The position numbers and the translations under genes were made by a program. From Sabellastarte sp. h YS-2021 (Eukaryota > Annelida > Polychaeta > Sabellida > Sabellidae), in contig OZ024928.1 in assembly GCA_964017235.1 (NCBI GenBank), forward strand, positions 152,296,881 to 152,360,880: DNA of 64,000 bases, written 5' to 3'. Each line of letters opens with the position of its first letter. Within the stretch, counting starts at the first letter, position 1. The notes beneath the pieces were generated by a model. The model saw only the letters and a program-made list of their open reading frames with translations. It did not search any database and was not told the DNA's origin. This document shows, in pieces, positions 8,301-62,774 of this stretch.

Positions 8301-8472
8301 CACACATGATTATATGATTATATTATATGATTATGTGAAGTTATCAATACTCGTTACTGAAATGCTTTGTAGCATTTACACAAAATTTACTACAGTTACA
8401 TCCAATGTTGTACATCCAATGTACAACACTTTCTCCACCTTGTCTATGTCTACAACGCTTGTTTATGTTAAT

Positions 8473-8501
8473 TATATCCCCAGACGAAAGTCGGGGATAT
8501 A
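8473..8501 (+). repeat. 5' hairpin of R1 copy 1
   Basis: TATATCCCCAGAC / GTCGGGGATATA arms around a GAAA loop, one bulged base. The same hairpin with different loop bases is at 42951-42979, and a degraded one is at 29286-29314. Confidence 0.85.
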
Positions 8502-10605
8502 TTGGATTCAGGTCCGTCGCGCCGCCGCCGCCGCCGCCGCCGCCGCCATAGAAATTTCCTTGTGGACGCGATAACTCAAAAACAAATTAATATTTTTTTT
8601 TCAAACTTGGTACACATGTTAAGGGTGCCCAAAGGAAGATGCCTATTTTAAGGTGACCTTAAACTCCCAGTAAAAAAGAACTTATGGCCACCTTAAGGTC
8701 AGAAATTGCACTTTTGGCCACTTAGAGCCCTGTAGGTCACAAACTATGATGCTCAGCTGGCTGAAATTTTACCTGACAACACATTAATATGTTCTTAGTA
8801 CATGTGCCGAAAATCATGACTTTAAGTTGAGGAGAAAATTGTGTTTGAGGCCCATAAATACCCCCACTTAGGGATTTTTTGCTATACTTTACACATATTT
8901 TGCCCTATAATTTGGAAGTGATAATTCTGATGAGTCTCAAACTGCGCTAGGTATAACTTTGATATGTAATCCTTGTCTGTAGAAAATTTTAGGGCTGTAG
9001 GTTTACCCAAAGGGGTCGTCTTAAGGTCTCAAAAGTGCCCACAGAGACCCAATTTATGCACTTTTTGCCACTTTCAAGCACTGTAGCTTTCAAACTATGT
9101 CTCTCATCTAAGTTAAATATCATCTGGGAATATATCTATGTGTTTTCTTATATGTGCCCCAACATTTAGGCCTTTAATAGACAGTTAACCTGTGTATCAG
9201 GACCATAAACACCCACCCGAGTGACCCTTATAAGACATTTTTCACATCTTTTTCCCTGTAACTTGGAAATGGTAAGTCTGAGAAGTTTCAAACTGTATTA
9301 GATATATATTCTGTGTGTAATCTTAGTATGTAACAGATTTTAAGTCTGAAGCTTTAATTTTGAAGGTCAAATTGAGGTCTCTAAAAGGCTCCCAAAGACC
9401 CAATATTTGGACTTTTTGCTACTTTTAAGCCCTGTGACTGTCAAACTATGTGACTGATAGAGCTCAAATCCTATCTGAGAAGATATTAGTATGTTATTTT
9501 TATATGTGCCAAAAATTAAGGCTTTAAGAAGACATTTAACCTGTGTATGAGGACCATAAATCCCCACCCGAGTGACCATTTTTAGACATTTTTCACATAT
9601 TTTTCCCTGTAACTTGGAAATGGTAAGTCTAAGAAGTTTCAAACTGTATTAGATGCATATTCTATGTGTATTCTTAGTATGTGACAAATTTTAAGTCTGA
9701 AGCTTTAATTTGAAGGCCACATTTAGGTCTCTAGAAGGCCCCATAAAGACCCAGTATTTGGACTTTTTGCCAATTTTAAGGCCTGTGACTGTTAAACTAT
9801 GTGACTGATAGAGCTGAAATCTCATCTGGGAATACATTATTATGTTCTTTTTACATGTGCCAAAAATCAAGGCTTCAAGTGGACATTTAACCTGTGTATG
9901 AGGACCTTTAACACCCACCTGAGTGACCCTTTTAAGACATTTTTCACATATTTTGCTCTGTAACTTGGAAATGGTAAGTCTGAGAAGTTTCAAACTTTAT
10001 TAGATACATATTCTATGTGTAATCTTAGTATGTAACAAATTTTAAGTCTGAAGCTTTAATTTGAAAGCCACATCGAGATCTCTAAAAGGCCCACAATGAC
10101 CCAATATTTGGACTTTTTACCACCTTTAAGCCCTGTAACTGTTAAACTATGTGATTGATGGAGCTGAAATCCCATCTGGGAATGCATTATTATGTCCTTT
10201 TTACATATGCCGAAAATCAAGGTTTTTAGTAGACATTTAACCTGTGTATGAGGGCCATAGACACTCGCCCAAGTGCCTTTTTTGACATTTTTTCCGTATT
10301 TTGCCCTGTTATTTGGAAATGCTTAGTGTGACAAGTCTTAAACTGTATTATATATGATTTTTGTTTGTTATGTATGTCCCCCCAAAAAGTTTCAGATCTG
10401 TAGTTTAATTGCTAAGGTCTCTTTAACAATTGTAAAATGCCCACAGAAACCCAATTTATGGATATTATGCCACTTTAAAGCCCAGTAACTGTCAAACTAT
10501 GTGGGTTATACAGCTGAAATCTTTGAATTTTTAAAAGGAAATGCCTGTCTATTTAAATTTTGAATATTAATAATGTTATGGCTATCTTAGTCTTTTAAGA
10601 ACTTA

Positions 10606-12165
10606 TTATGTCCACCCCCCTGGGGGGTGGATATATTATTTTTGCTTTTTTCGCCGTCCGATGTCCGATGTCCGTTGTCCGATGTCCGGCGTCCGGCGTC
10701 CGATGTCCGGCGTCACGCATGGTTTCCGCTCATTTAAAGGAAAAGTATTAGAGCTATTGTCACCAAATTTGGTATGCAGGCTTATTGGGTCAGTAGCTTG
10801 CTTGGGATTGCTTTTGGCTGTTGTACCTCTTTTGCTTACTGAGTAATACTTAAGTACAGCTATTTTCAGTACCCATTGGTTTCCGTGCATTTAAGCCAAA
10901 ATAATTAAAGATATTTTACTACAATTTTGAATACAAGATTGTTATGTCCATAGCTCGCTTGGTATTGCATTTGGGACTGATAGCTTTGTCAGTACATGAG
11001 TAATAGCCATTTAGGTACTTCATTGTGTATTTTCAGTACTACTTTTGAGTAATTTGCTTCTATCTCCTTAACCGTGCGAGATAGAGCGATTTCGGCAAAA
11101 TTTTCGACCCGCAGGGTATCTGAGGAGTGTACTCTTTGCAATTTTCAAAAAATTTTCCCCTCCCCAAAAATGGCGGCCATTTTGAATTTTCGAATTTTTG
11201 CCAAAAATGGCAAAACACAAATTTGCTTCTATCTCCTTAACCGTGCGAGATAGAGCGATTTCGTCAAAATTTTCGACCCACAGGGTATCTAAGCAATGCA
11301 ATCTTTGCAATTTTCAAAAAAATTTCCCCTCCCCAAAAATGGCGGCCATTTTGAATTTTCGAAGTTTTGCCAAAAATGGCAAAACACAAATTTCCTTCTA
11401 TCTCCTTAACCATGCGAGATAGAGCGATTTCGTCAAAATTTTCAACCCACAGGTATTTGAGCATTGTATTCTTGGCAATTTAAAAAAAAATTTCCCCTCC
11501 CCTAAAATGGCGGCCATTTTGAATTTTCAAATTTTTGCCAAAGATGGCAAAACACAAATTTGCTTCTATCTCCTTAACCATGCGAGATAGAGCGATTTCG
11601 TCGAAATTTTTCAACCCACAGGGTATCTAAGGAATGTAATCTTTGCAATTTTCAAAAAATTTTCCCCTCCCCAAAAATGGCAGCCATTTTGAATTTTCGA
11701 ATTTTTGCCCAAAATGGAAAAACACAAACTGGCCTTAACCGTGCAAAATAGAGTTATTTTGTTGAAATTTTCGACCCATAGGGTATCTAAGAAATGTACT
11801 CTTGGCAATTTTCAAAAAAATTTCCTTTTTCCAAAAATGGCGGCCATTTTGAATTTTCAAATTTTTGCCAAAAATAGAAAAACAGGAATTTGCTTCTATC
11901 TTCTTAACCGTGCAAGATAGAGTGATTTCGTCAAAATTTTCAACCCAACCAATGCAAAAAGGCATGAAGCTGAAATAATTTACATCTACACTAACAAATA
12001 TTTAAGCATCATTGATATATTTTACAAATGAAACAGGGTCTTGTAAGACTACTGTACAATTTGGGCAAAAGGTTCATGGGTGGACATTACACATGATAAT
12101 GTGTGTTCTTCTATGCTATCCTGTTTCTATTCGCATCTACTATCAACAGGGCGGCCTATTTCTAG
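10606..12165 (+). mobile_element. Hairpin-headed element inserted in R1, with ~170-bp tandem core
   Basis: Begins TTATGTCC with a GC-rich hairpin (TCCACCCCCC / GGGGGGTGGA, 10611-10631), then TCCGATG-type repeats. About six ~170-bp tandem units follow at 11048-11950 and the element ends TTTCTAG. R1 copy 2 has the empty site: removing 10606-12165 leaves AACTTA+TTTTTGTG, identical to the sequence near 44340. So it inserted between A and T without target duplication. The layout matches Helitron-type insertion; it encodes no protein. Confidence 0.75.
11048..11950 (+). repeat. ~170-bp tandem array
   Basis: Units start TTTGCTTCTATCTCC at about 11048, 11221, 11391, 11559 and 11888, with a truncated unit near 11735. 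Each contains ATGGCGGCCATTTTGAATTT, itself an inverted repeat around GGCGGCC. Short frames in it on both strands are by-products of the repeat. Confidence 0.9.
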
Positions 12166-12439
12166 TTTTTGTGTGTTACACCTCTGCTTGCTGAGTTTTT
12201 CACTTTTTAAAATGAAACTGGTGAAACATATTGAAGTAGACAAAATGGACACTTTAAGTGAGCTTTAAGTCCCAATATTAATGAAATTATATCCTTATGT
12301 AGTAAAACTAGGGGATTTTTAACCCTCAACTAGCCCAGTTTTATTCAACTTGCCTCAGTTAATTTTGGCACAGCTCCTACAGTTATGAACTCATTTCAGT
12401 TGATAATCACATACCTAAAATTCTCAATTCTTTTTGTAT

Positions 12440-12640
12440 TTGAGTACCCCTTTTATATAGATTGTTTGTTTACCATTTATGCTCAACCCACATCCCCCAC
12501 CCGGATTCCCCCCACCCACCTCTGGGACCTCCAGCTATATTGAGTGACACTAAATAAACAAAGGTATTTAATGATATCAGATGAGAAACAAAGAACTCAA
12601 TGGGGTTGCAGATCTTGTGTAATAGTGAGAGAGGTGTGGA
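12440..12640 (+). repeat. R1 3' region shared with 57030-57250
   Basis: AAATAAACAAAGGTATTT, GATGAGAAACAAAGAAC and GGGGTTGCAGATCT recur in the same order near 57.2 kb, including a C-rich run. This shows that R1 extends this far. Confidence 0.7.
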
Positions 12641-12842
12641 GAAGGGGAGAGGGGTGGGGGTGGGAGGTGGTGGGCTTCATTACATATAACACAAAGGGGA
12701 GTCAGAACTGAGATTGTGTCACATATTTAGGTTGCATATATATGGACCACATATATAGGTATAGAGGAAATGAATAACTGAAAACAATTTGCAAATTCTA
12801 AAAATAATATAATAAAATAATAATATAAATAATTTTTTTTTA

Positions 12843-13080
12843 AATAATATTTTATTTGTGAACAAATATAGAAACAGATATGCGCTTTTGGGATTATGAA
12901 TTTTAGAATGGACATTGAATCATCAATCATTTAAATACTTTGAAGGAAGATTGAAAAATATGATGAGTTGAGTTAAAAATAATATTTTATTTGTCAACAA
13001 ATATAGAAACAGATATGGTCTTTTGGGATTATTATTTTAGAATGGACATTCAATCATCAATCATTTAAATACTTTGAAAA
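12843..13080 (+). repeat. Tandem duplication, 135-bp period
   Basis: AATAATATTTTATTTGT...GAATGGACATT...CAATCATTTAAATACTTTGAA occurs at 12843 and again at 12978 with few changes. Confidence 0.85.
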
Positions 13081-13477
13081 TAGGTTTAGAGTTATCATTG
13101 CAGGAAGATTGAAAATATAATTTGAGTTATGTATTCGGCGTCTGGGGATACACCATCTTCCTTGGGGAGATATAAACAGAGTAGATTGATGTGCTGAAGT
13201 TCATATAATAATGGGTAATTATGTTTTAAAAAATTCCCGATCAAAACCTGTGGCGTGAGTGATGACCTGTCTGGGGATATGTTGGCGCCGAGTTGGCCCA
13301 ATCTAGTTAAAGAAGACCTTTGTAGGATTTTTCCTGTCATGATATCACTAAGGGGGTTGCTTTATGTAACAGTACGGTACAGCTTTGTGCATTCTTAGCT
13401 TTATAGCATGCTTATTAAAACCACAAGGCATTTTAAACTCTCAGGGACGCTTCACTTTTGTTAGCAAAAGCATTCAT

Positions 13478-15240: not shown

Positions 15241-15241
15241 T

Positions 15242-16373
15242 TTTTAGGCGGGTTGCGTGTAACCAACCCACCTAGTAGATTGATGTGTCCGACGTCGGTC
15301 TGTCTGTCCATCCACATTTTTGTTTCCAGATTTCTAACTCGAAAACACTTTGTCCAATTGAATTCAAACTTGACAGGGAAATAGATCACCATCATAGCTA
15401 GGTTCCTTTCGAAATTGGTGTAATTCCGTCTGTTCATTTGTCCGGTTTTTGTCTGTCTGTCCGTCAACATTTCCATTTCCAGACTGTAACTTGAAGACAC
15501 TTTGTCCAATCAAATTCATACCTGACAGGGAGATAAGATCACCATCAAAGCTAGGTTCCTTTCAAAATTGGTGTAATTCCGTCCGTTAGTTTTTCCGTTT
15601 TTTGTCTGTTTTTCTGGCTGTCAACATTTTTGTTTCCAGACTCTAACTTGAAAAGCTTTGTCCAATCAAATTCAAACTTGACAGGGAGATAAGATCACCA
15701 TCAAAGCTAGGTTTCTATCGAAATTGGTGTAATTCCGTCCGTTTTTGTCTGTTTGTCCGTCAACATTTCCGTTTCCGGACTCTAACTCGAAAACGCTTTG
15801 TCCAATCCAATTCAAACTTGTCAGGGAGATAAATCACCATCATAGCTAGGTGCCTTTCGAAATTGGTGTAATTCTGTGTGTTTGTCTGTTTTTTGTCCAT
15901 TTATCTGTCCGTCAACATTTTCGTTTCTGGACTTTAACTCGAAAACGCTTTGTCCAATCGAATTCAAACTTGACAGGGAGATAGATCACCATCATAGCTA
16001 GGTTCCTTTCAAAATAGGTATAATTCTGTGTTTTCGTTTGTCCGTTTTTTGCTCGACAACATTTCCGTTTCCAGACTCTAACTCAAAAACGCTTTGTCCA
16101 ATCGAATTCAAACTTGACAGGGAGATAGATCACTATCATAGCTAAGTTGCTTTGGAAATTGGTGTAATTCCGTCCGTTCGTTGTCTGTTTATAGCATAGA
16201 TACAGTTATGTAACCTAGATTACAAGTTTTACATTTCTTAGCACGTCTAACATATTTACCTTAACTGAATGACCTAATATTTCTTTCCTTGTTTCTAAAT
16301 TTAATTACAGCAGTCGCTCACCTCATTGCTGCCTGCACAACCTGCCTTTTGGGGTATTTCTGACCCTCTTGTT
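15242..16373 (+). mobile_element. Hairpin-headed element with ~148-bp tandem units
   Basis: Starts TTTTTAGGCGGGTTG; a 10-bp hairpin (15246-15273, one mismatch) is followed by GTCTGTCTGTCC. Six units follow with AACTCGAAAACGCTTTGTCC and CAAACTTGACAGGGAGATAG near 15337, 15487, 15646, 15781, 15937 and 16078. Near the end, CAACCTGCC (16338-16346) is the inverted copy of the hairpin arm, and the element closes with CTCTTGTT (16366-16373), a terminus shared with the element ending at 52182. Non-coding. Confidence 0.7.
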
Positions 16374-16850: not shown

Positions 16851-16855
16851 TTAAT

Positions 16856-16991
16856 TTTTATCCCACAGCCTTTAAGGGCAGTGCAAGTATTGTTTTGACC
16901 CATGGCGTCCGGATGGGTGGGTGGGTGGTTTGGAAAAAGTTTATCTGGGCTGTATCTCAGAAATCATAATGTATAGGTAGTTGAAGCTTAT
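16856..16991 (+). repeat. R3-family element head, truncated
   Basis: TTTTTATCCCACAGCC with a degraded hairpin, then GGCGTCCGGATGGGTGGG and GGGCTGTATCTCAGAAA, collinear with 62491-62620. It stops at GCTTA where the Harbinger element begins. Confidence 0.7.
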
Positions 16992-17007
16992 GGGGGTGTT
17001 CCACTGG

Positions 17008-17552: not shown

Positions 17553-17565
17553 CCAAATCTGTGGG

Positions 17566-29159: not shown

Positions 29160-29501
29160 GGTATTAACTTATAAAAATTTAATTTACTATTAAATTTTCT
29201 AGTTTGGTCTGAGAGGAGTTAACAGTGTCAAACAGCAGTAATCAGTGTCCAAGAAATCCTAAAAAGTAGGAAGGTATACATTTGTTATATTACCAGCAGA
29301 AAGTCGGGGATATACCGGTTTCACGTTGGTTAGACTGCCACTGTACGTTTTGTGTGCACGATAACTCAAAACCACTTTCATGGATTATATTTCAACTTGG
29401 CACACACATGTATGTGGAGTTGAACCGTATTTTAAGATGACCTTAAACTCCAAATAATACTGAGATTATGGCCACTTAAATTCAGAAATGGACCAACAGC
29501 C

Positions 29502-31065
29502 CAGTGTAGAAAATTCATTGAAAATTACTGCAGGCCTGCAGGACCTGCTCCACCAAAAAGTTGTAGGCCCGGCTTGAAAGTTGGAGGTCCTGCAGTAAAT
29601 ATCTGGTTATATAGTCATGTTTATGCATTTTTGTATCACCAGAAATTAAAGAACACCCATAATTATTTTTATTATAATTATTACACAATAATTATTGCTA
29701 AAACTGAAACAGAGTGTTTCTCCTATTACCATTTGTTTACTTTATCCAAGATGTTTGCCTTCTCACCTCGGAATACGCAATTCGCACATGCACAAGATTT
29801 ATCCTCTTCGAAATCGACATACCAGGCCAAACTCGCTCTTTGTAACCAGTCTTCCACTTGCAGAGAATCTCTGCTGTGGTGGATGTCGATGAAAATATAA
29901 GGTTTGCTCGTCCAATTTGTCTCCAGTTTTACTCAAATTTACAATAAAAACAGCAAATTAACTAAAATATTTGTGTTTGTCGACTACCAAAAAGATGAAG
30001 GACTTAGTGATCACAACTCGTACAATTTTTTTGCTGGCCAACAGGGCCAGTAACTTGAAAAAGTTAATGGCCTAACTGAAAAGTTGCTGGCCAAATTTTA
30101 AATTCTAAAAATGAAGAAATTTACAAATAAAAATCAATTTTTTTTCAACATACTTTACAGCTTACAATATACCATCATTTGTAGGAAAAAATAGGTGTAA
30201 AATTATTGAAAAATCTTCAATGTATATCTGTGAGTTAGAACAGCCATAATCAGACTCATCATCTGACTCATAATCAGAGTAACAAGGGTCATTGCTTACT
30301 GCCGAATTTTTAACAGCTTCATCAATGGTTAGGTCATTGGTCAATCACATTTTTCCTTTATTTTTATACATTAACCAACCAAATTCCTCTGTTACTTAAT
30401 CCAATAGTTTACCCAAGAACTTTATCAAAACCGTATCAGACAGGGTGTTAAATTGTACTAATGGCATAGAAAATTGAGTCAAAAAGCTGAAAACACACAA
30501 ATTCCTCTGTTATTTAATCCAATAGTTTACCCAAGAACTTTATCAAAACCGTATCAGACAGGGTGTTAAATTGTACTAATGGCATAGAAAATTGAGTCAA
30601 AAAGCTGAAAACACACAAATTCCTCTGTTACTTAATCTAATAGTTTACCCAAGAACTTTATCAAAACCCTATCAGACAGGGTGTTAAATTGTACTAATGG
30701 CATAGAAAATTGAGTCAAAAAGCTGAAAACACACAAATGGGAATGAAAACCTCACACTGAATATTCTTTCGATTTGAATGGCAAAAATATTAACAGTGGA
30801 AACATTTTGAATGGTTGTCACAATGAGCGATAATACAAGCTACCAATGTGAGATGAAATATGGACAGAAATCGCAAGGTTTTGGCTATTTTCTTTAAAAT
30901 TAAAGAATTCTACATGGCCAATATGTCCTCGGAGATGTAGACCCACCGCCACCAGGCCAGTGGCTGTTTCCAATTCCTTGACAGAGTGGAAACAAAATTT
31001 TTTCCTGACCCAACCATATATTTGCTGGAATCTGTCTGCCGGTCCGGCGCGAATTTCCCACACTG
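29502..31065. mobile_element. Non-autonomous hAT-type element, 1.56 kb
   Basis: Ends are CAGTGTAGAAAATTCA and, inverted, CAGTGTGGGAAATTCG: short hAT-style termini. Flanks are CAACAGCC (29494-29501) and CTTCAGCC (31066-31073), a decayed 8-bp target duplication inside R1. The interior is AT-rich, with a 118-bp triplicate at 30381-30734 and no recognisable transposase. A short acidic minus-strand frame (30344-30162) has no known domain. Confidence 0.65.
30381..30734 (+). repeat. 118-bp tandem triplication
   Basis: Starts AAATTCCTCTGTTA at 30381, 30499 and 30617; copies differ at only a few positions, so the expansion is recent. Confidence 0.92.
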
Positions 31066-31960
31066 CTTCAGCCACTTAAAGCCCTCTAGGTCACAAACTA
31101 TGTGGCTCGTATGGCCAAATTTTTTTTCTGAGAGCAAATTAATATATCCTTCTCTCATGGGTAAAAAATCAAGAATTTATGTTAAGGTTAAAATTGTGTT
31201 TGAGGCCCATCAAGACTTAACTCATGGCAAATCAGACTGGACTCAAACTGTAGTAAATATAAGTTCTGTAAATGTGATCTTTGTGGAAAATGTAAGGTCA
31301 GTAGTTTTAATTTTAAGGGCACATAAAGGTTTCTAAAAATGACAGTAGGGACAAATTTTATGAGCTTTTTCCCACTTTAAATCCTACAGCTTTCAAACTA
31401 TGTCCCTCACCCACCTAATATCTTATCTGCTAATATATTAATATGTACTTTTTCCATATGCCAAAAATCAAGGCTTTAAATTGACATTGAACCTGTATAT
31501 GATACTCAAAGACCCTATCCGGGGGACTTTTTTCTGTTTTTTTTTTTCCCACAAATTCTGCTTTCTAATTTTGAAATGCAAAGTCTGACCAGCCTGAAAC
31601 TGTACTATCATAACTTGTATGTGTGACCTTTGTGGAAAATTTTAGCTCTGTAGTTTAAATTTTAAGGTCGCCTTAAGGTCTCTAAAACATACCCACCGGG
31701 AGCCATTTTGTGCACTTTTTGTTTGCCACTTTAATGCAGCTTACTGAGCTAAAATCTCACATGGGGACATTTGTTTCTTTTCATTTATGGCAAATTCAAA
31801 GCTAGTTGACATTTAGACACTTTTTAAAGCCCGCAAAGATCCCACTTGTAACTTATTTTTTCTGCATTTTTCATATATTTTGATTGTTTGGAAGGTGATT
31901 ATCTGTTAAAATAAAATTTTTCCTATTTTTGTGTTGTCTTGCTCATAACTTCTAAACTAA

Positions 31961-32647
31961 CATAAGCTAAGTTTTTTTTCGCAAGTCAAATTTGCCCAGC
32001 CACTTTTTATGTAAAACATGTTAAAATCTAAGCTTTCTAGCTGTATTACTAAGGGGGTATTTAAATTTAAACAAGAACTTGACCTGTGTACCGTGACAAA
32101 TATCGTTTTTCTGGGAGCCTTTTCCTTTCAATATCTCCCTTTTCCCTTTGTATGAAATGTATTTTGGCATGCATATTTCTTGGGGACAAATCCCTCAATG
32201 AGTGGTGCTTCTGATTGCATAAACAGTGGGGATGGGGTTGGGGGAAATGGGTGTTGTGTGGTAGTAGATACTGTGACATTTATGTGTGTGTCTGTGGTGC
32301 ATGTGTGTATGTTTTTTTCTGTATATAAGAAAGAAATCCAAAATTCTTGAGATATAAGTCAAACTCCTGAGAGCTAATGAATTTTGTGTGAGAGATGGCT
32401 TGTCTTGATATTTGTTGGTGTCAAGTTGTTGCAATTTAGTTGTTATTGGTAGAAGTAAGTCCAAACTTTTGTTTCAAAAGCTATACTTACGGCCTTACAA
32501 CTTATAAAGTGAATTTATCTTTTAGAACTGTATTTCAAAACAACGTGAGTGCAATATTAATAGGGGAAAAAAAACTTTTTTTCAGATTTAAAACCTTTTT
32601 TCTTCTAAAATAGCCTTTTAACAAACCTGTTTTTTGCTTAAAATTTA
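31961..32647. other. Repeat-flank, no gene recognised
   Basis: AT-rich. Includes GT-rich sequence around 32280 and the AACCTTTTTT-type block at 32560-32640. The minus-strand H/P-rich frames are by-products. Confidence 0.4.
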
Positions 32648-39334: not shown

Positions 39335-39895
39335 TTATATCCATCCTGCTGGACATGGATATTATTTTGCCTTTCCCTCTGAATCACCCTTCATTGCTGC
39401 TCATTTACAGGTACAGTTTTTTACGTGTCTCAGCTAAATTTGGTGTGGAGGTTGAATGGCATGAGAGTTTGTGTGTAACTGCTTTCTTGGCAATATTTGG
39501 CAACAAGTATTGCCATGGTTTTTTCTTTTTTTTTTTTTTTTTTGCACTTACAAATATTTTTATGGGTTCTTTGTTTTCCATACCCCTGCACTGATTGGGG
39601 CTGATTAGTTTTTCAGCAACACCTGTTGTTTTTATGTTTCTTGGGCTTAAAAATCTTTCTCGGGTATCTTTGCATTCCAAACCCTTGAACAGATTTCAGC
39701 TGATTAGTTTTTCGGCAACACCATGCAACAATGTTTCTGTGGACTTTTTGTATTCCAAACACCTGCGTGAATAGGAGCTGGTTAGCTTTTTAGCAATATC
39801 AGGCAGCTAGTATTCCCATGGCAACACTTTTTCTGTTTCTAGGTTGTGGATATAAAAAGTCCTGAAGAAGACCTGTATGGTAAAGTGACCTAACA
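39335..39895 (+). repeat. Hairpin-headed repeat with three ~110-130-bp units
   Basis: A|TTATATCCATCCTGCTGGACATGGATAT gives a hairpin (39337-39363). Units share GCTGATTAGTTTTTCAGCAA-like words at about 39600, 39695 and 39776. Poly(T) at 39525-39543. Confidence 0.6.
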
Positions 39896-42549: not shown

Positions 42550-42925
42550 GTGCTGTATCTTGGAAACTGTAAGGTGTAAGAAGTTCATACTTGGTAGGGA
42601 CATTGGTTGGGGGTTGTAGGGGTGCAACATCATGGGGTAACCTTGATTTGACCTTTGACATTGCTGTAGTGACCTTGACCTTTAAAATCTTCTCTGGGCT
42701 CTTGCTCAGAAACAATAAGGTGTAGGAAGTTGATACTTGGTAATGACAGTGGTTGGGGGCTGTAGGTGTGTAATGTCATGGTATGACATTGATTTGACTT
42801 TTGACTTTGCTGTAGTGACCTTGACCTTTAAAATCTTGCCCAGGCTATATCGTGAGAACCATCAGGTATTCAAAGTTGATACTTGGTAAGGATATTAGAT
42901 GCGGGTGTAGGTGTGACCTTAATGT
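42550..42925 (+). repeat. R3-family tandem repeat, ~146-bp unit, three copies
   Basis: GTT(C/G)ATACTTGGTA recurs at about 42584, 42731 and 42874, with CCTTGATTTGACCTTTGAC between. Lacks the R3 hairpin. Confidence 0.75.
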
Positions 42926-42949: not shown

Positions 42950-44630
42950 TTATATCCCCAGACAAAAGTCAGGGATATATTGGATTCAGGTCTGTCACAC
43001 CGCCGCTGCTGTAGAAATTTCCTTGTGTACGAGATAACTCAAAAACGGATCAGTATTTCTTTTTCAAACTTGGTACACATGTTAAGAGTGCTCAAAGGAA
43101 GATCCCTATTTTAAGGTGACCTTCAACTCCCAATAATAAAGAACTTATGGCCACCTTAAGGTCAGAAATTTGACTTTTGGCCACTTAGAGCCCTCTAGGT
43201 CACAAACTATGAGGCTCATCTGGCTAAAATTTTACCTGAGAACACATTAATACATTCTTAGTACATGTGCCGAAAATCAAGACTTTAAGTTGAGAAAATT
43301 GTGTTTGAGGCCCATAAATACCCCATTTAGGGATTTTTTCCTACATTTTTCACACATTTTGCCCTATAATTTGGAAGTGGTAATTCTGATGAGTCTCAAA
43401 CTGCACTAGGTATAACTTTTATATGTAATGCTGGTCTGTGAAAAATTTAATGGCTGTAGGTTTACCTGTAAGGTCGACTTAAGGTCTCAAAATTGCCCAC
43501 AGAGACCCAATTTATGGACTTTTTGTCACTTTCAAGCACAGCAGTTTTCAAACTATTTTTCTCATCTAAGTGAAATATCATCTGGGAATATATCAATATG
43601 TATTTTTTATATGTGCCGTAAAATTTAGGTCCTAATAGACTTTTAACCTGTGTATGAGGACCATAAACACTCACCCGAGTGACCCTTTTAAGACATTTTT
43701 CACATATTTTGCCCTGTAACTTGGAAATGGTAAGTCTGAGAAGTTTCAAACTGTATTAGTTATAAATTCTATGTTTAATCTTTGTATGTGACAGATTTTT
43801 TAAGTCTGAAGCTTTAATTTGAAGGTCACATTGAGGTCTCTAAAAGGCCCACACAGACCCAATATTTGGTCTTTTGGCCACTTTTAAGCCCTGTGACTGT
43901 TAAACTATGTGACTGATAGAGCTGAAATCCCATCTGGGAATATATTATGTTCTTTTTACATGTGCCGAAAATCAAGGCTTTTAGTAGACATTTAACCTGT
44001 GTATGAGGACCATAGACACTCACCCAAGTGACCTTTTATGACATTTTTTTCTGTATTTTGCCCTGTTATTTGAAAATTCTAAGTGTGACAAGTCTTAAAC
44101 TGTACTATATATAATTTTTGTTTGTTATCTATGTCCCCCAAAAGTTTCAGATCTGTGGTTTAATTGCTAAGGTCACTTTAACAATTGTAAAATGCCCACA
44201 GAGACCCAATTTATGGACATTGTGCCACTTTAAAGCCCTGTAACTGTCGAACTATGTGGCTCATAGAGGAGCTGAAAGGAAGTGCCTGTCTATTTAAATT
44301 TTGAATATTAAAGATGTTATGGCTATCTTAGGCTTTTAAGAACTTATTTTTGTGTTTTTATCCCTCTGCTTGCTGAGTTTTTAAGTTTTTAAAATTAAGC
44401 TGGTTATACATATTAAAATAGGTAAAATGGACACTGTTATTTTCTGGTGAGCTTTAATTCCCAATATTAATGAAATTATAGCCTTATGTAGTAAAATAGG
44501 GGATTTTTAACCCTTTACTAGCCCAGTATTATTCAACTGGCCTCAGTTAATTTTGACACAGCTCCTACAATTATGAACTTATTTCAGTTGATAATCACAC
44601 ATTTAAAATTCTCAGTTCTAATTATTATTA
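42950..44630 (+). mobile_element. R1 element, copy 2 (holds the empty site)
   Basis: A|TTATATCCCCAGAC, hairpin 42951-42979, CACCGCCGCTGCTG, then GAGATAACTCAAAAACGG. About four internal units follow, then AAGAACTTATTTTTGTG near 44338, continuous where copy 1 carries the 10606-12165 insertion. Similarity to copy 1 extends to about 44630 (CAGTTGATAATCACAC). Confidence 0.7.
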
Positions 44631-45960: not shown

Positions 45961-45975
45961 CACCATGTTTTTGTT

Positions 45976-46005
45976 ATGTCAGCTGACTTGTCAGTCAGCT
46001 GACAT
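45976..46005 (+). repeat. Perfect 5' hairpin of the satellite element
   Basis: ATGTCAGCTGAC / GTCAGCTGACAT arms, loop TTGTCA. Confidence 0.9.
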
Positions 46006-46429
46006 TATGTCGTCACTCTGCGGCGTGGGCGTACGCGTCCGCGTCCGCGTACGCGTCCGCGTGAACAACTTCTCCTCCAAAACTACAAGGCCTAGAGACG
46101 TGCTGTTTTTTTTAAAAGATACCTTATCTATCGAGGATGAAAAATTGTTCAAGGCATGCAAATCTGTCTGTTCGTCTGTTTGCTAGAGACATTACAAGGG
46201 GGGTACCCCCACCAAAAGTGTGAAAATTTCAACACTTAATCACAATTTTCTCAGTGACTATTGCAGGGATTTCTCTCATATCTTGCATATATGTACTAGG
46301 CCACAGGTAGATTCTCTTGTGTGAGTATGAGACCTGGATCTGTCTTACTTTTTTTTTAATAAATTTTTTTAATAATTTTTAATGCATTAAAATTCATGAA
46401 ATCATGCACAAAATCATTTATAACTTGAA

Positions 46430-49400
46430 AAGTGTTGCATTTAGAGCATTTTGTTAAAATATGTTATTCAGCTACTTTTTTCATAGCTACAATATGGTGA
46501 GTAAGTTGGGTGCCTGTCTCAATAGCTAAGTGAGTAATAGCTACTTTTGGGCTTTTCAGCAACTTCCATCATGAGTAAAATCACTTGTAACTTAAAAACT
46601 ATTGCATTTAGAGAATTTCGTATAAATATGTTATTCAGCTACTTTTGGGTCAGCTATAACATAGTAAAATTTTAGACCTGTAGCTCATGGCATAGCTGAG
46701 TAATAGCTACTTTTAGGTTATCACTGTTGAGTAAATCGCTTATAACTTCAAAACTATTGCATTTAGAGAATTTCGTATAAATATGTTATTCAGCTACTTT
46801 TGGGTCAGCTATAACATAGTAAAATTTCAGACCTGTAGCTCATGGCATAGCTGAGTAATAGCTACTTTGAGGTTATCACTGTTGAGTAAATCGCTTATAA
46901 CTTGGAAACTATTGCATTTACAGTATTTTGTTTCAATATGTTATTCACCTATTTTGGGATCAGCTATAACATAGTGAAGTTTCAGATCTGTGGCTCATTG
47001 CATAGCTGAGTAATAGCTACTTTGAAGTTCTCACTATTGAGTAAATCACTTGTAACTTAAAACCTATTGCATTTAGAGAATTTCGTATAAATATGTTATT
47101 CAGCTACTTTTGGGCCAGCTATAACATAGTAAAATTTCAGATCTGTAGGTCATGGCATAGCTGAGTAATAGCTACTTTAAAGTTCTCACTATTGAGTAAA
47201 TCAGTTGTAATTGGAAAACTATTGCATTTAGAGTATTTCGTATAAATATGTTATTCAGCTACTTTTGGGTCAGCTATAACACAGTAAAATTTCAGACATG
47301 TAGCTCATGGCATAGCTGAGTAATAGCTACTTTTAGGTCATCACTATTGAGTAAATCAGTTGTAACTTGAAAACTATTGCATTTACAGTATTTTGCTTAA
47401 ATATGTTGTTCACCTACTTTTGGGTCAGCTATAACATACTAAAATTTCAGACCTGTAGCTCATTGCATAGCTGAGTAATAACTACTTTGAGATTCTCACT
47501 ATTGAGTAAATCAGTTGTAATTGCAAAACTATTGCATTTAGAGAATTTCGTATAAATATGTTATTCAGCTACTTTTGGGGCAGCTATAACATAGTGAAAT
47601 TTCAGATCTGTAGGTCATGGCATAGCTGAGTAATAGCTACTTTGAAGTTCTCACTATTGAGTAAATCAGTTGTAATTGGAAAACTATTGCATTTACAGAA
47701 TTTCGTATAAATATGTTATTCAGCTACTTTTGGGTCAGCTATAACATAGTAAAATTTCAGACCTGTAGCTCATGGCATAGCTGAGTAATAGCTACTTTTA
47801 GGTCATCACTATTGAATAAATCAGTTGTAACTTGAAAACTATTGCATTTACAGTATTTTGCTTAAATATGTTGTTCACCTACTTTTGGGTCAGCTATAAC
47901 ATAGTAAAATTTCAGACCTGTAGCTCATTGCATAGCTGAGTAATAACTACTTTGAGGTTCTCACTATTGAGTAAATCAGTTGTAATTGCAAAACTATTGC
48001 ATTTAGAGAATTTAGTATAAATATGTTATTCAGCTACTTTTGGGTCAGCTATAACATAGTAAAATTTCAGACCTGTAGCTCATGGCATAGCTGAGTAATA
48101 GCTACTTTTAGGTCATCACTATTGCGTAAATCAGTTGTAACTTGAAAACTATTGCATTTACAGTATTTTGCTTAAATATGTTGTTCACCTACTTTTGGGT
48201 CAGCTATAACATAGTAAAATTTCAGACCTGTAGCTCATGGCATAGCTGAGTAATAGCTACTTTGAGGTTATCACTGTTGAGTAAATCGCTTATAACTTGG
48301 AAATTATTGCATTTAGAGTATTTTGTTTCAATATGTTATTCACCTATTTTGGGGTCAGCTATAACATAGTGAAGTTCCAGACCTGTGACTCATTGCATAG
48401 CTGAGTAATAGCTACTTTGAAGTTCTCAATGTTGAGCAAATCACTTATAATTTGAAAACTATTGCATTTAGAGAATTTCGTATAAATATGTTATTCAGCT
48501 ACTTTTGGGTCAGCTATAACATAGTAAAATTTCAGACCTGTAGCTCATGGCATAGCTGAGTAATAGCTACTTTGAGGTTATCACTGTTGAGTAAATCGCT
48601 TATAACTTGGAAACTATTGCATTTACAGTATTTTGTTTCAATATGTTATTCACCTATTTTGGGGTCAGCTATAACATAGTGAAGTTTCAGATCTGTGGCT
48701 CATTGCATAGCTGAGTAATAGCTACTTTGAAGTTCTCACTATTGAGTAAATCACTTGTAACTTAAAACCTATTGCATTTAGAGAATTTCGTATAAATATG
48801 TTATTCAGCTACTTTTGGGCCAGCTATAACATAGTAAAATTTCAGATCTGTAGGTCATGGCATAGCTGAGTAATAGCTACTTTAAAGTTCTCACTATTGA
48901 GTAAATCAGTTGTAATTGGAAAACTATTGCATTTAGAGTATTTCGTATAAATATGTTATTCAGCTACTTTTGGGTCAGCTATAACACAGTAAAATTTCAG
49001 ACATGTAGCTCATGGCATAGCTGAGTAATAGCTACTTTTAGGTCATCACTATTGAGTAAATCAGTTGTAACTTGAAAACTATTGCATTTACAGTATTTTG
49101 CTTAAATATGTTGTTCACCTACTTTTGGGTCAGCTATAACATACTAAAATTTCAGACCTGTAGCTCATTGCATAGCTGAGTAATAACTACTTTGAGATTC
49201 TCACTATTGAGTAAATCAGTTGTAATTGCAAAACTATTGCATTTAGAGAATTTCGTATAAATATGTTATTCAGCTACTTTTGGGGCAGCTATAACATAGT
49301 GAAATTTCAGATCTGTAGGTCATGGCATAGCTGAGTAATAGCTACTTTGAAGTTCTCACTATTGAGTAAATCAGTTGTAATTGGAAAACTATTGCATTTA

Positions 49401-51075
49401 CAGAATTTCGTATAAATATGTTATTCAGCTACTTTTGGGTCAGCTATAACATAGTAAAATTTCAGACCTGTAGCTCATGGCATAGCTGAGTAATAGCTAC
49501 TTTTAGGTCATCACTATTGAGTAAATCAGTTGTAACTTGAAAACTATTGCATTTACAGTATTTTGCTTAAATATGTTGTTCACCTACTTTTGGGTCAGCT
49601 ATAACATAGTAAAATTTCAGACCTGTAGCTCATTGCATAGCTGAGTAATAACTACTTTGAGGTTCTCACTATTGAGTAAATCAGTTGTAATTGCAAAACT
49701 ATTGCATTTAGAGAATTTAGTATAAATATGTTATTCAGCTACTTTTGGGTCAGCTATAACATAGTAAAATTTCAGACCTGTAGCTCATGGCATAGCTGAG
49801 TAATAGCTACTTTTAGGTCATCACTATTGCGTAAATCAGTTGTAACTTGAAAACTATTGCATTTACAGTATTTTGCTTAAATATGTTGTTCACCTACTTT
49901 TGGGTCAGCTATAACATAGTAAAATTTCAGACCTGTAGCTCATGGCATAGCTGAGTAATAGCTACTTTGAGGTTATCACTGTTGAGTAAATCGCTTATAA
50001 CTTGGAAATTATTGCATTTAGAGTATTTTGTTTCAATATGTTATTCACCTATTTTGGGGTCAGCTATAACATAGTGAAGTTCCAGACCTGTGACTCATTG
50101 CATAGCTGAGTAATAGCTACTTTGAAGTTCTCAATGTTGAGCAAATCACTTATAATTTGAAAACTATTGCATTTAGAGAATTTAGTATAAATATGTTATT
50201 CAGCTACTTTTGGGCCAGCTATAACATAGTAAAATTTCAGACTTGTAGCTCATGGCATAGCTGAGTAATAGCTACTTTTAGGTTATCACTGTTGAGTAAA
50301 TCACTTATAACGTGGAAACTATTGCATTTAGAGTATTTTGTTGCAATATGTTATTCACCTATTTTGGGGTCAGCTATAACATAGTGAAGTTCCAGACCTG
50401 TGGCTCATTGCATAGCTGAGTAATAGCTACTTTGAAGTTCTCATTGTTGAGTAAATCAGTTGTAATTGGAAAACTATTGCCTTTACAGAAATTTGTGCAA
50501 ATATGTTATTCAGCTACTTTTGGGTCAGCTATAACATAGTGAAATTACAGACCTGTAGCTCATGGCACAACTGAGCAATAGCTATTCTCAGGCACTGACT
50601 GTTGAGTAAATCGGCTATAACTTGAAAAATATTGCATTTGGAGTATTTTGTTAAAATATATTGTTCACCTACTTTTGGATTAGCTATAACATAGTGAAAT
50701 TACAGACCTATAGCTCATGGCATAGCGGAGCAATAGCTATTTTCAGGTTCTCACTATTGAGTAAATCAGTTGTAACTTGAAAACTATTGCATTTACAGTA
50801 TTTTGCTTAAATATGTTGTTCACCTACTTTTAGGTCAGCTATAACAGAGCAAAAATTCAGACATGTAGCTCATTGCATAGCTGAGTAATAGTTACTTTGA
50901 GGTTCTCACTCTTGAGTAAATCAGTAGTAACTTGAAAACTATTACATTTAGAGTATTTTGTTAAATATGTTATTCACAGACGTTTTGGTCAGCTATAACA
51001 TAGTGAAATTGCAGACCTCTATGTCATGGCATAGCTGAGCAATAGCTTCTTTCAGGTTCTCACTGTTGAGTAAAT
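46430..51075 (+). repeat. 155-bp satellite array, about 30 monomers
   Basis: CAGCTATAAC recurs at 46651, 46806, 46961, 47116, 47271, 47426, 47581 and onward at exactly 155 bases. Each monomer has AACTATTGCATTTAGAGAAT, GCTACTTTTGGGTCAGC, TTCAGACCTGTAGCTCATGG and GCATAGCTGAGTAATAGC. Edge monomers are more diverged than central ones. No coding capacity. Confidence 0.97.
46750..50170 (+). repeat. Higher-order repeat: 11 monomers (1,705 bp), two copies
   Basis: Monomer-specific variants recur 1,705 bases apart: CAGTATTTTGTTTCAATATG at 46921 and 48626; the rare ACAGTAAAATTTCAGACATG at 47281 and 48986; CATACTAAAATTTCAG likewise. Only isolated differences were seen (e.g. ATTGAATAAA at 47812 versus ATTGAGTAAA). 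Similarity drops to monomer level after about 50175. Confidence 0.93.
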
Positions 51076-51079
51076 CATT

Positions 51080-51900
51080 GTATCCAACCTATAGGAAATC
51101 ATGGGCTGGGAATCTGTTAATATGGTCCGATTTGACCTTGGAACCCTCCTTCAAGGTCAAATGAGGATAGCCAAACATAAAAGTGCTTATAACTCGCTTA
51201 TTATTGGTCCTAGAGGTTTGGAATGAAAACCAACCTATAGAAAATCATGAGCTGGGAATTTTTTCGTGTGGTCGGATTTCACCTTGGACCCCTCCTTCAA
51301 GGTCAAATGAGGATAGCCAAACTTAAAAGTGCTTATAACTCGCTTATTATTGGTCCTAGAGGTTTGGAATGGAAAACCAACCTATAGAAAATCATGGGCT
51401 GGGAATCTTTTGGTGTGGTCAGATTTCACCTTAGACCCCTCCTTCCAGGTCAAACGAAGATAGCCAAACTTAGAGTGCTTATAACTCGCGTATTATTGGT
51501 CTTGGAGGTTTGGGATGGTAAACCAACATATAGGAAATCATGGGCTGGGATTCTTTTGGTGTGGTCAGATTTGACCTGGGACCCCTCCTTCAAGGTCAAT
51601 TGAGGATAGCCAAACTTACAATCGCTTAGAACTTGCTTATTATTGGTCCTACAGGTTTGGGATGGTAAACAAGCTACAGGAAATCATGGGCTGGGAATTT
51701 TTTTGTGTGGTCGGATTTAACCTTGGACCCCTCCGTCAAGGTCAAACAAGGATAGCCAAACTTAAAAAGTGCCTATGACTCACTTATTATTGGTCCGAGA
51801 GGTTTGGGATGGTAAACCATCCTAAATTCTTTGGCTGGGAATCTTTTGGTATGGTCAGATTTGACCTTTGGACCCCTTCTTCATGGTCGAACGAGGATAT
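51080..51900 (+). repeat. Second tandem array, ~147-bp unit, about 5.5 copies
   Basis: AAATCATGGGCTGGGAAT, GGATAGCCAAACTTAAAAG and ATAACTCGCTTATTATTGG recur. Directly abuts the 155-bp satellite, whose sequence reappears briefly at 51895-51960. Confidence 0.9.
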
Positions 51901-52139
51901 TGCATTTATAGTATTTCTTTAAATATTTTTAACCTACTTTTTACACTTAAACAATTACCTTGTTACTTTATTTCATAATACCATTTGCAGGGCACAACTT
52001 TTTTGTCCTTTTTTTCTGTCAGCTTCGGAATATCTTTCGAACATGCTGTTCAGTTACCATTTACTGTATTTCTGTACAGCCCTTTCCCTGATAATTATGC
52101 TTTCCTCTCATTATCACCATCACAAATCAAAAACATTCA

Positions 52140-52182
52140 GTCAGCTGACACAGTGCCCGTTCACGGGCACTCTCCTCTTGTT
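52140..52182 (+). repeat. 3' terminus with inverted hairpin-arm copy, hairpin and CTCTTGTT
   Basis: GTCAGCTGAC, then AGTGCCCG/CGGGCACT hairpin with loop TTCA, then CTCTTGTT. Confidence 0.7.
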
Positions 52183-56999: not shown

Positions 57000-58497
57000 T
57001 GAACCATTGATGATTTCTGAGTATTTTATTACCCCTTTTATATATATCAGAGTGTTTGTTATCTCTTACCATTTATGCAGTATCACTCCATCCCTTTGTC
57101 ATATTAGGTAATGTAGCCCCACCCCCACACCCCCACCCCCCTCTGAAGACCTCCAGATATTCAGTGACACGAAATAAACAAAGGTATTTTTGAAATGATA
57201 TCAAATGAGAAACAAAGAACCAGGCTGGTCAGTGGGGTTGCAGATCTCCTGTAATAGTGTTAGATCTTCAGTAAAAGTGTTAGATGTTTAATTAGATGAT
57301 CATCATACATCAATCAGATTTATACCATATCTTCTTCTTTTTTTTTGCTCTACATAAATATATGAAAAAGCACTCATCCTCTTTGTTTAAGCAGTATGCT
57401 GGTATAAAACCTGGCGTATGTAGCACTATATAAACTAAAACTTCATTTTGTTTGCAAGGAACTGAGAAGTGATATTGTCAGATTTTACTGTTTCTTATTA
57501 TTATAAATGAAACTGTGAAACCAGCTTTAATTTACTTTGTAACAGGCTTTGAAGGATACATGTCAAATTATGAAGAAAAAAAAATCTAATTGCATATTTG
57601 TTTTATAATGTTTCATCTATCCACTAATATGTTAAAACATAGAAACAGATAAACTTGTTTGTGGACCTTTGCCCACATGGACTCTTGCCCACAGGACCTT
57701 TGCCCACAAAGGACTTTGCCCACCACATTTTTACAGGGGAGGAACTTTCCATAAAATAATGATATGAAATAATATCCAAAAAATTAGCTTTTTAATTTTT
57801 TTATTGAAGTATAATTGTACAATATCAACCATATTAAAGGTCAGATTCTTATTATATTATCGAATTATAAGTATGTAATGTTACAATGTACATGTAATAA
57901 TATTCTCAATGACTGTTGGACTTTCTTGAAACCTTTTTTGTATACATACATTCTTCATTGCAAAGGTTTTGGCCACCTCAGGTATTTTTATTGTTTCCAT
58001 TTTGCAGTACTATGTAAATCTATCAACAGTGAATTAAATGCTAATGAAATCATCTTGCATACTTTATATAGTGCAACTTTAGTTCAGTTAATGTTTATCT
58101 CTTTCAACACTATATATCCTGAGTAGTTATTGATTGATTGGTTGGTTGGTTGATTGATTTATTGATCGATTGATAGATTGTGGGTGAACATCCTACCCTG
58201 TCAGATTGTTGTGGGCAGCAAATTTCCTTGTGGGCAAAGTGCCTGTGGATAGAGTTTGCATTGGACAAAGTTCTTGTGGGCAAAGTTCGTATCAGTCGTC
58301 TGGGGATACCATTTTGATTGCATAATAAAAATTTTGTGGATTGAATTATTCAAGTTCTTATATAAGTGGTTTATCATGTTTTCCCGCAAAATTATATCGC
58401 ACAGGAGGGGTCCCATGACAAAAATACCCTGTGAAAACATATTGTGTGAATGATGACCTGTCTGGGGATATGTTGGCGCCGAGTTAGCCCAATCTAG
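57000..58497 (+). repeat. R1 element, copy 4 (3' part only), with MITE inside
   Basis: 57030-57250 matches 12440-12640 and 58293-58497 matches 13128-13306, in the same order. It ends CCCAATCTAG at 58497, after which the two copies diverge. Interrupted by 57660-58292. Confidence 0.65.
57660..58292. mobile_element. MITE with TTTGCCCACAAGGAC-type inverted ends
   Basis: Left end has four TTGCCCAC words (57666-57725); the right end has GTGGGCAAAG words inverted (58215-58290). The interior is AT-rich; the 103-codon frame at 57815-58126 has no recognisable domain. Confidence 0.65.
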
Positions 58498-59293: not shown

Positions 59294-59519
59294 TCTAACA
59301 TTCTCAGAGTGAACAGACGCATTTGTAAGCTCTGAAGATCTTTTACAGTAATATCTGATCGAATAAGTTGGAAAGTAGGATCACAGTATAGTACAAATAA
59401 CAAGGATCATAAGGATACAGATTATTATCTGAATTATTGAAAAAAATGGGTATATTTTAAAGGAAAAAAAATACAAAATAAGAAAAAGTATTGAATTTAA
59501 TACGAAAACCACACAGGCA

Positions 59520-61488: not shown

Positions 61489-61554
61489 GTATTTCCTTTA
61501 GGGTAAGTGCCTTTGGAACTGCATTAGAAACAATATAGTTTATGTACTCTTCAG

Positions 61555-62490
61555 CTACCACTGATGAAGTGGTCGAAATTCTGAAAGTGATCTTGAAGCA
61601 TAAGCCACTACTTTGCTTATATCATTTAGTTTGTCCTTCTGCACTAGCATGGTACCAAGGCCAAATGGGCTTCCATCTACTATAACTTCTGTATACTTGT
61701 TGAAATCATAATAGTTCATAACCTTTGCACTGGCTAGACTCTGTTTTAGAGTATGAAATGCTTTTTTGTCCTGATTACCCCACTGCCATTTTATTTCTTT
61801 CTTGGTTAGCCTTCTCAAAGGCTCATTTACTGCAGCATAATTTGGGATAAACCTTGAACAAAACCCAACCATCCCAAGAAAACTTCCTCTACACTTTTTG
61901 GGTGACTGGCTTGTAAAACTGCCTGGGTTTTCTGAGGATCACATTCAATCCCTTTGCTTGACAGTATGTGTCCAAAGAAGTTGATTTTGTCTAAATGAAA
62001 TTGACATTTAGCTTTGTTCAGTGTGAGATTTTTCTCTTGTAGCCTTTGAAAGACTGATTCCAGATTTTTGTCATGTTCTTCTTTATTTTTACCCCAGACC
62101 AAAATGTCATCACTCATGTTTTTGACACCTTGTAATCCAATTAAACTCTGCTCTATCGCATTTTGAAATAATTCAGCTGCTGATGAGATTCCAAAACTCA
62201 ACCACTTGTATCTCCAAATGAGTAGAAAATGTGGTTATATAGCGAGAGGATTCATCCAGTTCACACTGATGATATCCTTTGTTCAAATCCAACTTTGAAA
62301 ACATAGTAGCTCCATTGAGGTCACTCAAGAGTTCCTCCAGAGTTGGGGTGATGTGTCTTGTACTGTTCTCTGGTCCTTTCTGTTGCTGTCTTTTTGATTG
62401 AGAGCCTGTTCTTTGAAACTGATTTCCTGATCTTTGCCAAGGTTTTGATGAAGTTTTGTTCCTTTTCGTCATTGTGTTGATGTTGTCCAC
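61555..62490 (-). pseudogene. Gypsy reverse transcriptase and RNase H
   Basis: FSKLDLNKGYHQCELDE (motif A Asp) near 62270, then, after a frameshift near 62185, the catalytic pair in NMSDDILVWG and FFGHILSSKGI. After a second frame change near 61850 come FCSRFIPNYAAVNEPLRRLT and RNase H-type EVIVDGSPFGLGTMLVQ. Dead by frameshifts. Confidence 0.85.
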
Positions 62491-62774
62491 TTTTTACCCC
62501 ACAGCCCTTAAGGGCTGTCGGGGTATTGTTTTCACCCATGGTGTCCGGATGGGTGGGCGGCGGGAAAAAGTTTGTCTGGGCTGTATCTCAGAAACCGTAA
62601 GGTGTAGGAAGTTGATACTTGGTAGGGACATTGGTTAGGATGTGTAGGTGTGCAACGTCATGGTCTGACCTTGATTTGACCTTTGACCTTGCCATAGTGA
62701 CCTTGAGTTTGAAAATCTTGTCCGGGATATATCTCGGAAACCATAAGGTGTAGGAAGTTGATACTTGGTAGGGC
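62491..62774 (+). mobile_element. R3 element with intact hairpin, truncated by LINE
   Basis: TTTTTACCCCACAGCCC; the ACAGCCCTTAAGGGCTGT palindrome is extended by CCCC/GGGG. Then GTCCGGATGGGTGGGCGG, GGGCTGTATCTCAGAAACCG and GTTGATACTTGGTAGGG. It breaks into the gypsy fragment on the left and into the L2-like LINE at 62774. Confidence 0.75.

Follow-up and report, generated by a model that had tools for sequence, protein, structure and literature searches.

The closest described relatives of the repeats analyzed here are DINE-1 of Drosophila and the Helentron-associated elements (HINEs). In the parts of these papers drawn on here, Yang and Barbash (PMC2374699) described for Drosophila subterminal inverted repeats (subTIRs), the 5′ one adjoined by a partial inverted repeat (IR), together with central repeats, a GTCY microsatellite, a preference for TT, and a 3′ stem-loop in which substitutions in the stem suggest compensatory change; for the inverted repeats, the argument was that the structure is kept although the sequence changes. 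The ends of Helentrons and HINEs were described by these structures in Thomas et al. (PMC4067079), where at least 11 bp of identical subTIRs define a HINE family. In oyster, Vojvoda Zeljko et al. (PMC7492417) reported 11 tandem-repeat HINEs with subTIRs of 11-12 bp and IRs of 7-12 bp, several of them with GTCY, GTCC, or GTCK microsatellites, which could not be related to any of ten autonomous Helentron-type elements. We analyzed a stretch of 64,000 nucleotides from the annelid Sabellastarte sp. h YS-2021 (contig OZ024928.1, positions 152,296,881 to 152,360,880; hereafter the window), in which sequence reading and a repeat finder revealed tandem arrays headed by short T-rich, hairpin-forming sequences. 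With a probability of about 93%, we regard these repeats as HINEs, i.e., non-coding rolling-circle transposons mobilized by Rep/helicase/endonuclease proteins that Helentrons encode at other sites in the genome.

An earlier note on the window had listed eight elements (E1 to E8) as unrelated-looking repeat families with one shared architecture, had likened them to HINEs, and had offered the 5′ hairpin as a useful definition of a larger group. The likeness to HINEs proved correct, E3 adding a probable autonomous partner with the same ends, while the proposed definition is already in print (Yang and Barbash 2008, Thomas et al. 2014, and Vojvoda Zeljko et al. 2020, in the parts cited). The families do look unrelated in their cores and arms, but self-comparison placed the eight elements in six families, since E1 and E7 belong together, as do E4 and E8, next to E2, E3, E5, and E6. 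Most of the listed elements share the architecture. The hairpin of E4 is no better than shuffled sequence. This architecture is the published one of HINEs and DINE-1: a 5′ subTIR, an IR, a GTCY-rich microsatellite, a core, a 3′ subTIR, a 3′ palindrome, and a TT target. The common 5′ hairpin and its far-end copy are already known end signals of HINEs: the 5′ subTIR and the IR complementary to it form the hairpin, and the inverted copy at the far end corresponds to the 3′ subTIR, after which the HINE reading places the 3′ palindrome and then CTAG, CTTG, or a T-rich terminus. Four elements (E1, E2, E3, and E5; Table 1) were complete, with a T-rich start, a 5′ hairpin, a GC-rich stretch, a tandem core, an inverted arm copy, and CTAG or CTTG before T. 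The order of microsatellite and tandem core was seen in the window elements by the repeat finder and in the sequence, weakly for E6. No 3′ end of E7, E8, or E4 was located within the window. The E8 head (38 nt, up to 3 mismatches) occurred 14,436 times in the genome, compared with 0 occurrences of the reversed control.

Hairpin stability was assessed with 300 dinucleotide shuffles per head, counting those as stable as the observed sequence. None of the 300 reached this level for E1, E5, and E8, one each for E2 and E3, three for E6, and four for E7, so that the T-rich heads fold beyond chance in seven of the eight cases. In E4, 42 of 300 shuffles were as stable, because E4 is a mutated copy of the E8 head. 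Among the 12,791 46-mers of the window, E1, E2, E5, and E8 ranked in the top 1% and E3 and E7 in the top 3%, with E6 at 7% and E4 at 18%; the local hairpins are thus strong without being unique, as stronger ones occur elsewhere among these 46-mers. A hairpin alone is weak evidence, and the argument rests on its position and on the far copy of its arm. The inverted arms reported near the 3′ ends were recovered in E1 (at 13269, previously given as 13270), E3 (16338), and E5 (52140), and a fourth was found in E2 (12078). Each 5′ arm was reverse-complemented and scored against the final 110 nt of all four 3′ ends; the elements' own ends scored 12, 10, 7, and 11 (E1, E2, E3, and E5, respectively) and all other combinations 4 or 5. 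With the arms kept in the same orientation as a control, a high score with the own end was seen for E5 alone (10), a consequence of its palindromic arm. Random segments reached the arm score in 6 of 2,688 cases for E1, 1 of 2,721 for E2, 14 of 2,689 for E3 (the weakest), and 0 of 2,700 for E5. A 3′ subTIR of the subterminal kind was accordingly found for these four elements in the window, and for the E8 family outside it.

The window was also scanned for trios composed of an arm, its IR, and a far inverted copy, with or without a CTWG+T end. This yielded 36 trios on the plus strand and 29 on the minus strand, of which 7 and 3, respectively, carried the end. The seven plus-strand matches with an end included E1, E2, E3, and E5; no element was recognized in the other six ended matches (three on each strand). 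Twenty Markov shuffles of the plus strand gave 0-4 ended matches each (mean 0.8), a null that lacks tandem repeats and so understates chance, many of the extra matches being situated in tandem units or palindromes. A stricter scan of both strands was applied to the window joined to 200 kb of flanking DNA (the 264-kb set). Its 15 matches comprised 8 elements, namely E1 twice, E2 twice, E5, the new family F11 twice, and the new family F12, as well as 7 internal tandem units identified by eye, against 3 matches in total from 10 shuffles; E3 was missed. For E8, the 3′ copy was predicted from the 5′ arm and then searched for, which led to tails with a common 3′ hairpin. Copies anchored on this 3′ hairpin alone later confirmed the E8 tail, the 12 matches in the 264-kb set consisting of 11 tails and 1 unrelated sequence.

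The boundaries of the elements were examined by aligning copies from the 264-kb set without gaps on short anchors (E8, 8 heads and 9 tails; E1, 7 heads and 4 tails; E5, 4 tails; F11, 4 heads and 4 tails). Identity dropped to 20-37% beyond the element end and T run; the F12 anchors were too loose for a boundary to show. All four E1 tails, including the one in the window, reached CTAG and then diverged, one of them (joined coordinate 95673) with a shortened 3′ hairpin, and in the solitary tail E10, CTAG is followed by A rather than T. All four E5 tails, again with the window copy included, ended in CTTG+TT. Copies start at the hairpin, as the earlier note expected, with a mild exception: among seven E5-family heads, two begin at the inner loop or the second arm, and in two more the hairpin is replaced by one palindromic arm. 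The nested element E2 has an empty site in its paralogous context, the uninterrupted sequence of E7 at ~44347. E2 is flanked by gaactta-TT on the left and TTTTTG on the right, and the empty site reads gaactta-TTTTT-G, which fits an insertion into a T run without duplication, the exact number of Ts being uncertain, as it likewise is at insertion sites in Thomas et al. (PMC4067079, in part). Use of a TT target without duplication was thus found at this one aligned empty site and in the flanks. A second empty site, that of F11 in an E5-type array, was read by eye. In this case, a core unit of the E5-type element (joined coordinates 209410-216216) is split by the F11 element (210119-215822). Elsewhere in the flanks (joined 95673-95720), an E1-type 3′ end is directly followed by an F12-type 5′ start, the two elements lying end to end.

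The probable autonomous partner of E3 was identified outside the window. Helitron_like_N (PF14214) had 24 matches in the 1.79-Gb genome and 0 in 14 control genomes, and two of the loci with long frames were extended to 20 kb each: A (L033+L034) and B (L035+L036, reverse complement). Locus A contains an open frame of 2,245 amino acids (aa), which was scanned as two segments, omitting a single codon between them, and matches Helitron_like_N (1.6e-25), DUF6570, PIF1 (2.1e-28), and Exo_endo_phos (3.7e-5), its C-terminus aligning to nearly all of the last domain (6-225 of 225). Over A 748-12958, locus B shares 98.5-99% identity with A, and its flanks are different; its protein pieces are 95-99.7% identical to those of A, and the homology between the two begins at the T run/hairpin and ends at CTTG+T. 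Two further loci (L024 and L029) are ~99% identical to A/B over the Rep region. Both frames are surrounded by heads and a tail of the E3 family, as the trio scan and BLAST showed, and overlapping alignments to A and B span all of E3: residues 4-954 align in the 5′ tandem region (73-88%) and residues 953-1135 in the last 184 nt (84.8%), with the junction at residue ~953. E3 is apparently an internal-deletion derivative of these Helentrons. The search for a Rep/helicase-encoding relative with the same ends, which the earlier note had proposed, yielded a probable one for E3 only. Two 5′ heads are present in each locus, separated by 601 bp in A and 768 bp in B, and the intervening tandem units are homologous. 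In the window, ten of the 34 stop-to-stop frames of at least 110 aa (most, not all, of the longest) were scanned, and no Rep or Helitron helicase was present among them; six matched reverse transcriptase (three times), integrase, zf-RVT, and a weak phage-integrase-like domain, and four had no match.

Several results weigh against the assignment to HINEs. Among the 3′ palindromes, that of E3 is no better than shuffles (51/300 as stable) and those of E1 and E2 are modest (14/300 and 12/300), the E5 palindrome standing at 1/300, and the E8 end is TATTTT and not CTWG. F11 and F12, which came from a scan demanding the trio, and the E8 3′ end, which came from a search with the predicted arm, do not support the trio independently. 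The partner link is limited to E3. The Exo_endo_phos match of A is marginal, at 24.0 bits just under the Pfam cut-off of 24.5; the frame of B is broken into overlapping pieces, and the domain scan covered A only. The one other Rep-helicase lineage extended (L028, 17.6 kb, carrying Rep and PIF1, with a 98.9% identical relative, L022) contained no family end, only two 17-nt matches at chance level, and tblastn with the A protein found no Rep homology in the 264 kb around the window.

Among the alternatives, the repeats might belong to Helitron2-type rather than Helentron elements, which have similar ends and a Rep-helicase without an endonuclease. The termini of both groups are described as similar (PMC5148889, in part), the endonuclease match is marginal as stated, and no partner was identified for E1, E2, E5, E8, F11, or F12; the near-complete alignment of the E3 partner's C-terminus to Exo_endo_phos speaks against it, and we consider this explanation unlikely. 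Far less probable is that the repeats are miniature inverted-repeat transposable elements (MITEs) of a cut-and-paste transposase, with the inverted arms near the ends serving as transposase-binding terminal repeats. Inverted copies do occur at both ends, and DINE-1 and pearl elements were formerly called MITEs (PMC7492417 and PMC2374699, in the parts cited), but the 3′ copy is subterminal, lying tens of bases from the end, the E2 empty site shows no target duplication beyond the uncertainty in T number, and a partner of E3 that codes for Rep, helicase, and endonuclease strongly disfavors a cut-and-paste origin. It is hardly credible that chance or replication slippage produced the flanking hairpins and matching arms of what would be ordinary satellite arrays. 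The cores are indeed tandem arrays (weakly so in E6) and local palindromes also occur inside core units, as in 7 of the 15 trio matches in 264 kb; however, the sharp common ends of dispersed copies refute this explanation, to which the nested E2 insertion with its empty site and the more than 14,000 genomic heads of the E8 family are also opposed.

Concerning the HINE assignment, the arms match their partners within each family. Across seven families, the 5′ arms differed from their own 3′ copies by 2 edits in total and from their own IRs by 3, and the true pairing was the only one that good among 5,040 pairings in a permutation test. This test used one hand-picked arm set per family, with the E2 3′ arm taken from a copy other than that of the window, the E3 3′ arm taken from A/B, and E6 left out as it has no 3′ end; the material was selected, F11, F12, and the E8 tail having been found by asking for the match. 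The proposal that the arms changed together stands between families and not within them, where stem changes were one-sided. No compensatory change was seen by eye in 30 heads of six families from the 264-kb set and loci A and B (7 E1, 3 E2, 5 E3, 7 E5, 7 E8, and 1 E6), inspected without R-scape or a covariance model, which neither supports nor refutes the structure because dead copies are not expected to covary.

The E8 IR has one base more than a perfect partner, a one-base bulge that is nearly fixed: the 23-nt head string with the extra base had 5,421 exact copies in the genome and the string without it 18. All 11 E8 tails in 264 kb lack the extra base, and the tail string with it had 0 exact matches genome-wide (a bare count with no denominator). 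The E1 IR is one base short and the E2 IR has a G-T pair, both having 3′ copies identical to the 5′ arm; the reverse holds for E3 and E5 at one outer base, where the IR matches better than the 3′ copy, and F11 and F12 match perfectly at both. It is conceivable, if doubtful, that the 5′ arm has two competing partners, the neighboring IR and the far 3′ subTIR, and that the far pairing is the constrained one. The hairpin would then be a switch releasing or hiding a recognition site that serves to bring both ends together; which family a given Rep moves would be set by the matched arm pair. The extra base in E8 heads and not tails, and the better match at distance in E1 and E2, point in this direction; the nearly equal summed pairings and the opposite pattern in E3 and E5 count against it, and a founder copy suffices to explain the fixed bulge without selection. 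We did not meet the bulge in the DINE-1, HINE, and Helentron literature covered in part here, although no search was aimed at it and we make no claim on novelty.

The anatomy, the boundaries over several copies, the aligned empty site, and an intact Rep-helicase-endonuclease frame with the ends of E3 were observed directly. From these we infer recognition, nicking, strand transfer, and the mobilization of the other families by such proteins. An HUH nuclease would recognize the subTIR at the 5′ end and then nick at the T run, after which the helicase would unwind one strand, the 3′ subTIR and palindrome would mark termination, and the intermediate would join into a TT target without duplication. 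Helraiser, a canonical Helitron, cannot do without its left end, and its 3′ hairpin acts as a terminator (PMC4778049 and PMC5876387, in part), roles that may carry over to Helentrons by analogy. At the origin of each new family, the 5′ arm would change together with its 3′ copy; arms that differ between families and still match within them would be expected because one Rep must recognize both ends. The present analysis contributes the multi-copy boundaries, the nesting of E2 in E1 with its empty site, E8-family 3′ ends, two new families from the 264-kb set, and the E3 partner; its value lies in this partner, the added families, and a clean series of matched arms. Satellite-like arrays are spread through animal genomes by HINEs, whose helpers are often unknown. 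In this genome, one tandem-repeat HINE has common ends with a probable Helentron partner that is present in two near-identical, presumably recent copies, one with an open frame. The rule of which Rep moves which end thereby becomes testable, with several families of distinct matched arms serving as natural variants.

Table 1. Elements of the window and their parts (window coordinates), with the heads of the two Helentron loci
Feature	Position	Strand	Remarks
E1, complete HINE, interrupted by E2	8472..13306	+	ends CTAG+TT
E1 5′ hairpin (5′ subTIR + IR)	8473..8501	+	
E1 core, ~351-bp tandem units	9021-10521	+	repeat finder
E1 3′ subTIR GTCTGGGGATAT	13269..13280	+	exact inverted copy of 5′ arm
E1 3′ hairpin	13282-13301	+	
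E2, complete HINE nested in E1	10607..12165	+	ends CTAG+TTTTT
E2 5′ hairpin	10607-10635	+	
E2 GTCCGAT stretch	10655-10714	+	repeat finder
E2 core, ~169-bp units	11051-11947	+	repeat finder
E2 3′ inverted arm copy	12078-12087	+	
E3, complete HINE	15241..16371	+	ends CTTG+TT; core of ~144-bp units
E3 5′ hairpin	15245-15274	+	
E3 3′ copy	16338-16347	+	
E4, decayed E8-family head	16855..16984	+	82% identical to 62491-62615
E9, degenerate E1-like element (head, core, possible tail)	29281..32442	+	BLAST to E1 head and core
E6 5′ hairpin of possible HINE	39337..39362	+	
E6 weak tandem units, ~99 bp	39527-39722	+	
E8-family core units without head	42563..42915	+	
E7, paralogue of E1	42950..44619	+	E1 homology 42946-44348 and 44347-44619, flanking E2
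E5, complete HINE	45975..52180	+	two successive arrays (155 bp x 29; 146 bp x 5.6); ends CTTG+TT
E5 5′ hairpin	45976-46005	+	
E5 GCGTCC stretch	46029-46062	+	
E5 3′ copy	52140-52149	+	
E5 3′ hairpin	52152-52171	+	
E10, solitary 3′ end of another E1-family copy	58420..58497	+	87% identical to 13229-13306, stops at CTAG
E8 5′ head + core units	62490..62775	+	hairpin 62495-62525
Heads of locus A	L033 686 and 1287		
Heads of locus B	858 and 1626		reverse complement of L035+L036

The tail of E9 was read by eye, and its stable hairpin is no longer present according to the 46-mer folding ranks. A candidate 3′ arm of E6 at 39850 (GTGGATAT) was rejected, since homology to another locus runs straight through it. 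A repeated GGCCTGTCGGT-type motif at 17000-17560, directly after the E4 head, contains the 46-mer that folds into the window's most stable hairpin (-18.6). The remaining sequence includes a retroelement with reverse transcriptase at 22554-29206, which we take to be DIRS-like, with RNase H and phage-integrase-like matches below the Pfam cut-offs and a flanking inverted repeat of 97.6% identity (22554-22758 and 28979-29180). At 33091-38590, sequence with 68-73% similarity to this retroelement lies between a further pair of inverted repeats (33091-33286 and 38398-38590, 92%) and is perhaps a second, decayed element of its kind. Reverse transcriptase (PF00078) was found at both 52400-56690, together with zf-RVT, and 62762-63937, which by eye appear to be non-LTR (long terminal repeat) type remnants, the latter adjoining the broken end of E8. 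An integrase core (rve) match at 60710-61288 (minus strand) lies next to minus-strand sequence that looks pol-like by eye. A possible terminal-inverted-repeat transposon at 40237-42548, also read by eye, has the ends CCCTGCGAAATGATG and CATCATTTCGCCAGGG and many GTTCAGGA-type repeats inside, and a possible MITE at 58621-59294 shows the inverted ends GGGCCGGTATTCATAAA and TTTGTGAATACGGGCCC by eye and internal inverted repeats.

When compared to known systems, as far as these are described in the parts of the papers cited, the window elements resemble Drosophila DINE-1 and the mite HINE-Mo (PMC2374699 and PMC4067079) in their subTIRs, central repeats, putative 3′ stem-loop, T-rich target, and variable end Ts, and DINE-1 also in the IR and microsatellite. 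In contrast, the arm sequences differ from DINE-1, the D. melanogaster subTIR being ATACCCGTTACTC (PMC2374699). Fusarium Helitron2 (PMC5148889) likewise has asymmetric inverted repeats and terminal hairpins, but it lacks the endonuclease and has other terminal sequences. The Pacific oyster Cg_HINE elements (PMC7492417) are alike by description, their sequences not having been compared: they share the 5′ subTIR, the IR, the GTCY/GTCC microsatellite, a satellite-like core that sometimes consists of two arrays, the 3′ subTIR, the 3′ palindrome (putative in the window elements), and a TT target without duplication, and differ in that E3 is tied to Helentrons A and B. These two loci, unlike described Helentrons (PMC4067079), have two 5′ heads each; they agree with them in the Rep-helicase-AP endonuclease domain order of the 2,245-aa frame and in having their ends in common with a non-coding derivative.

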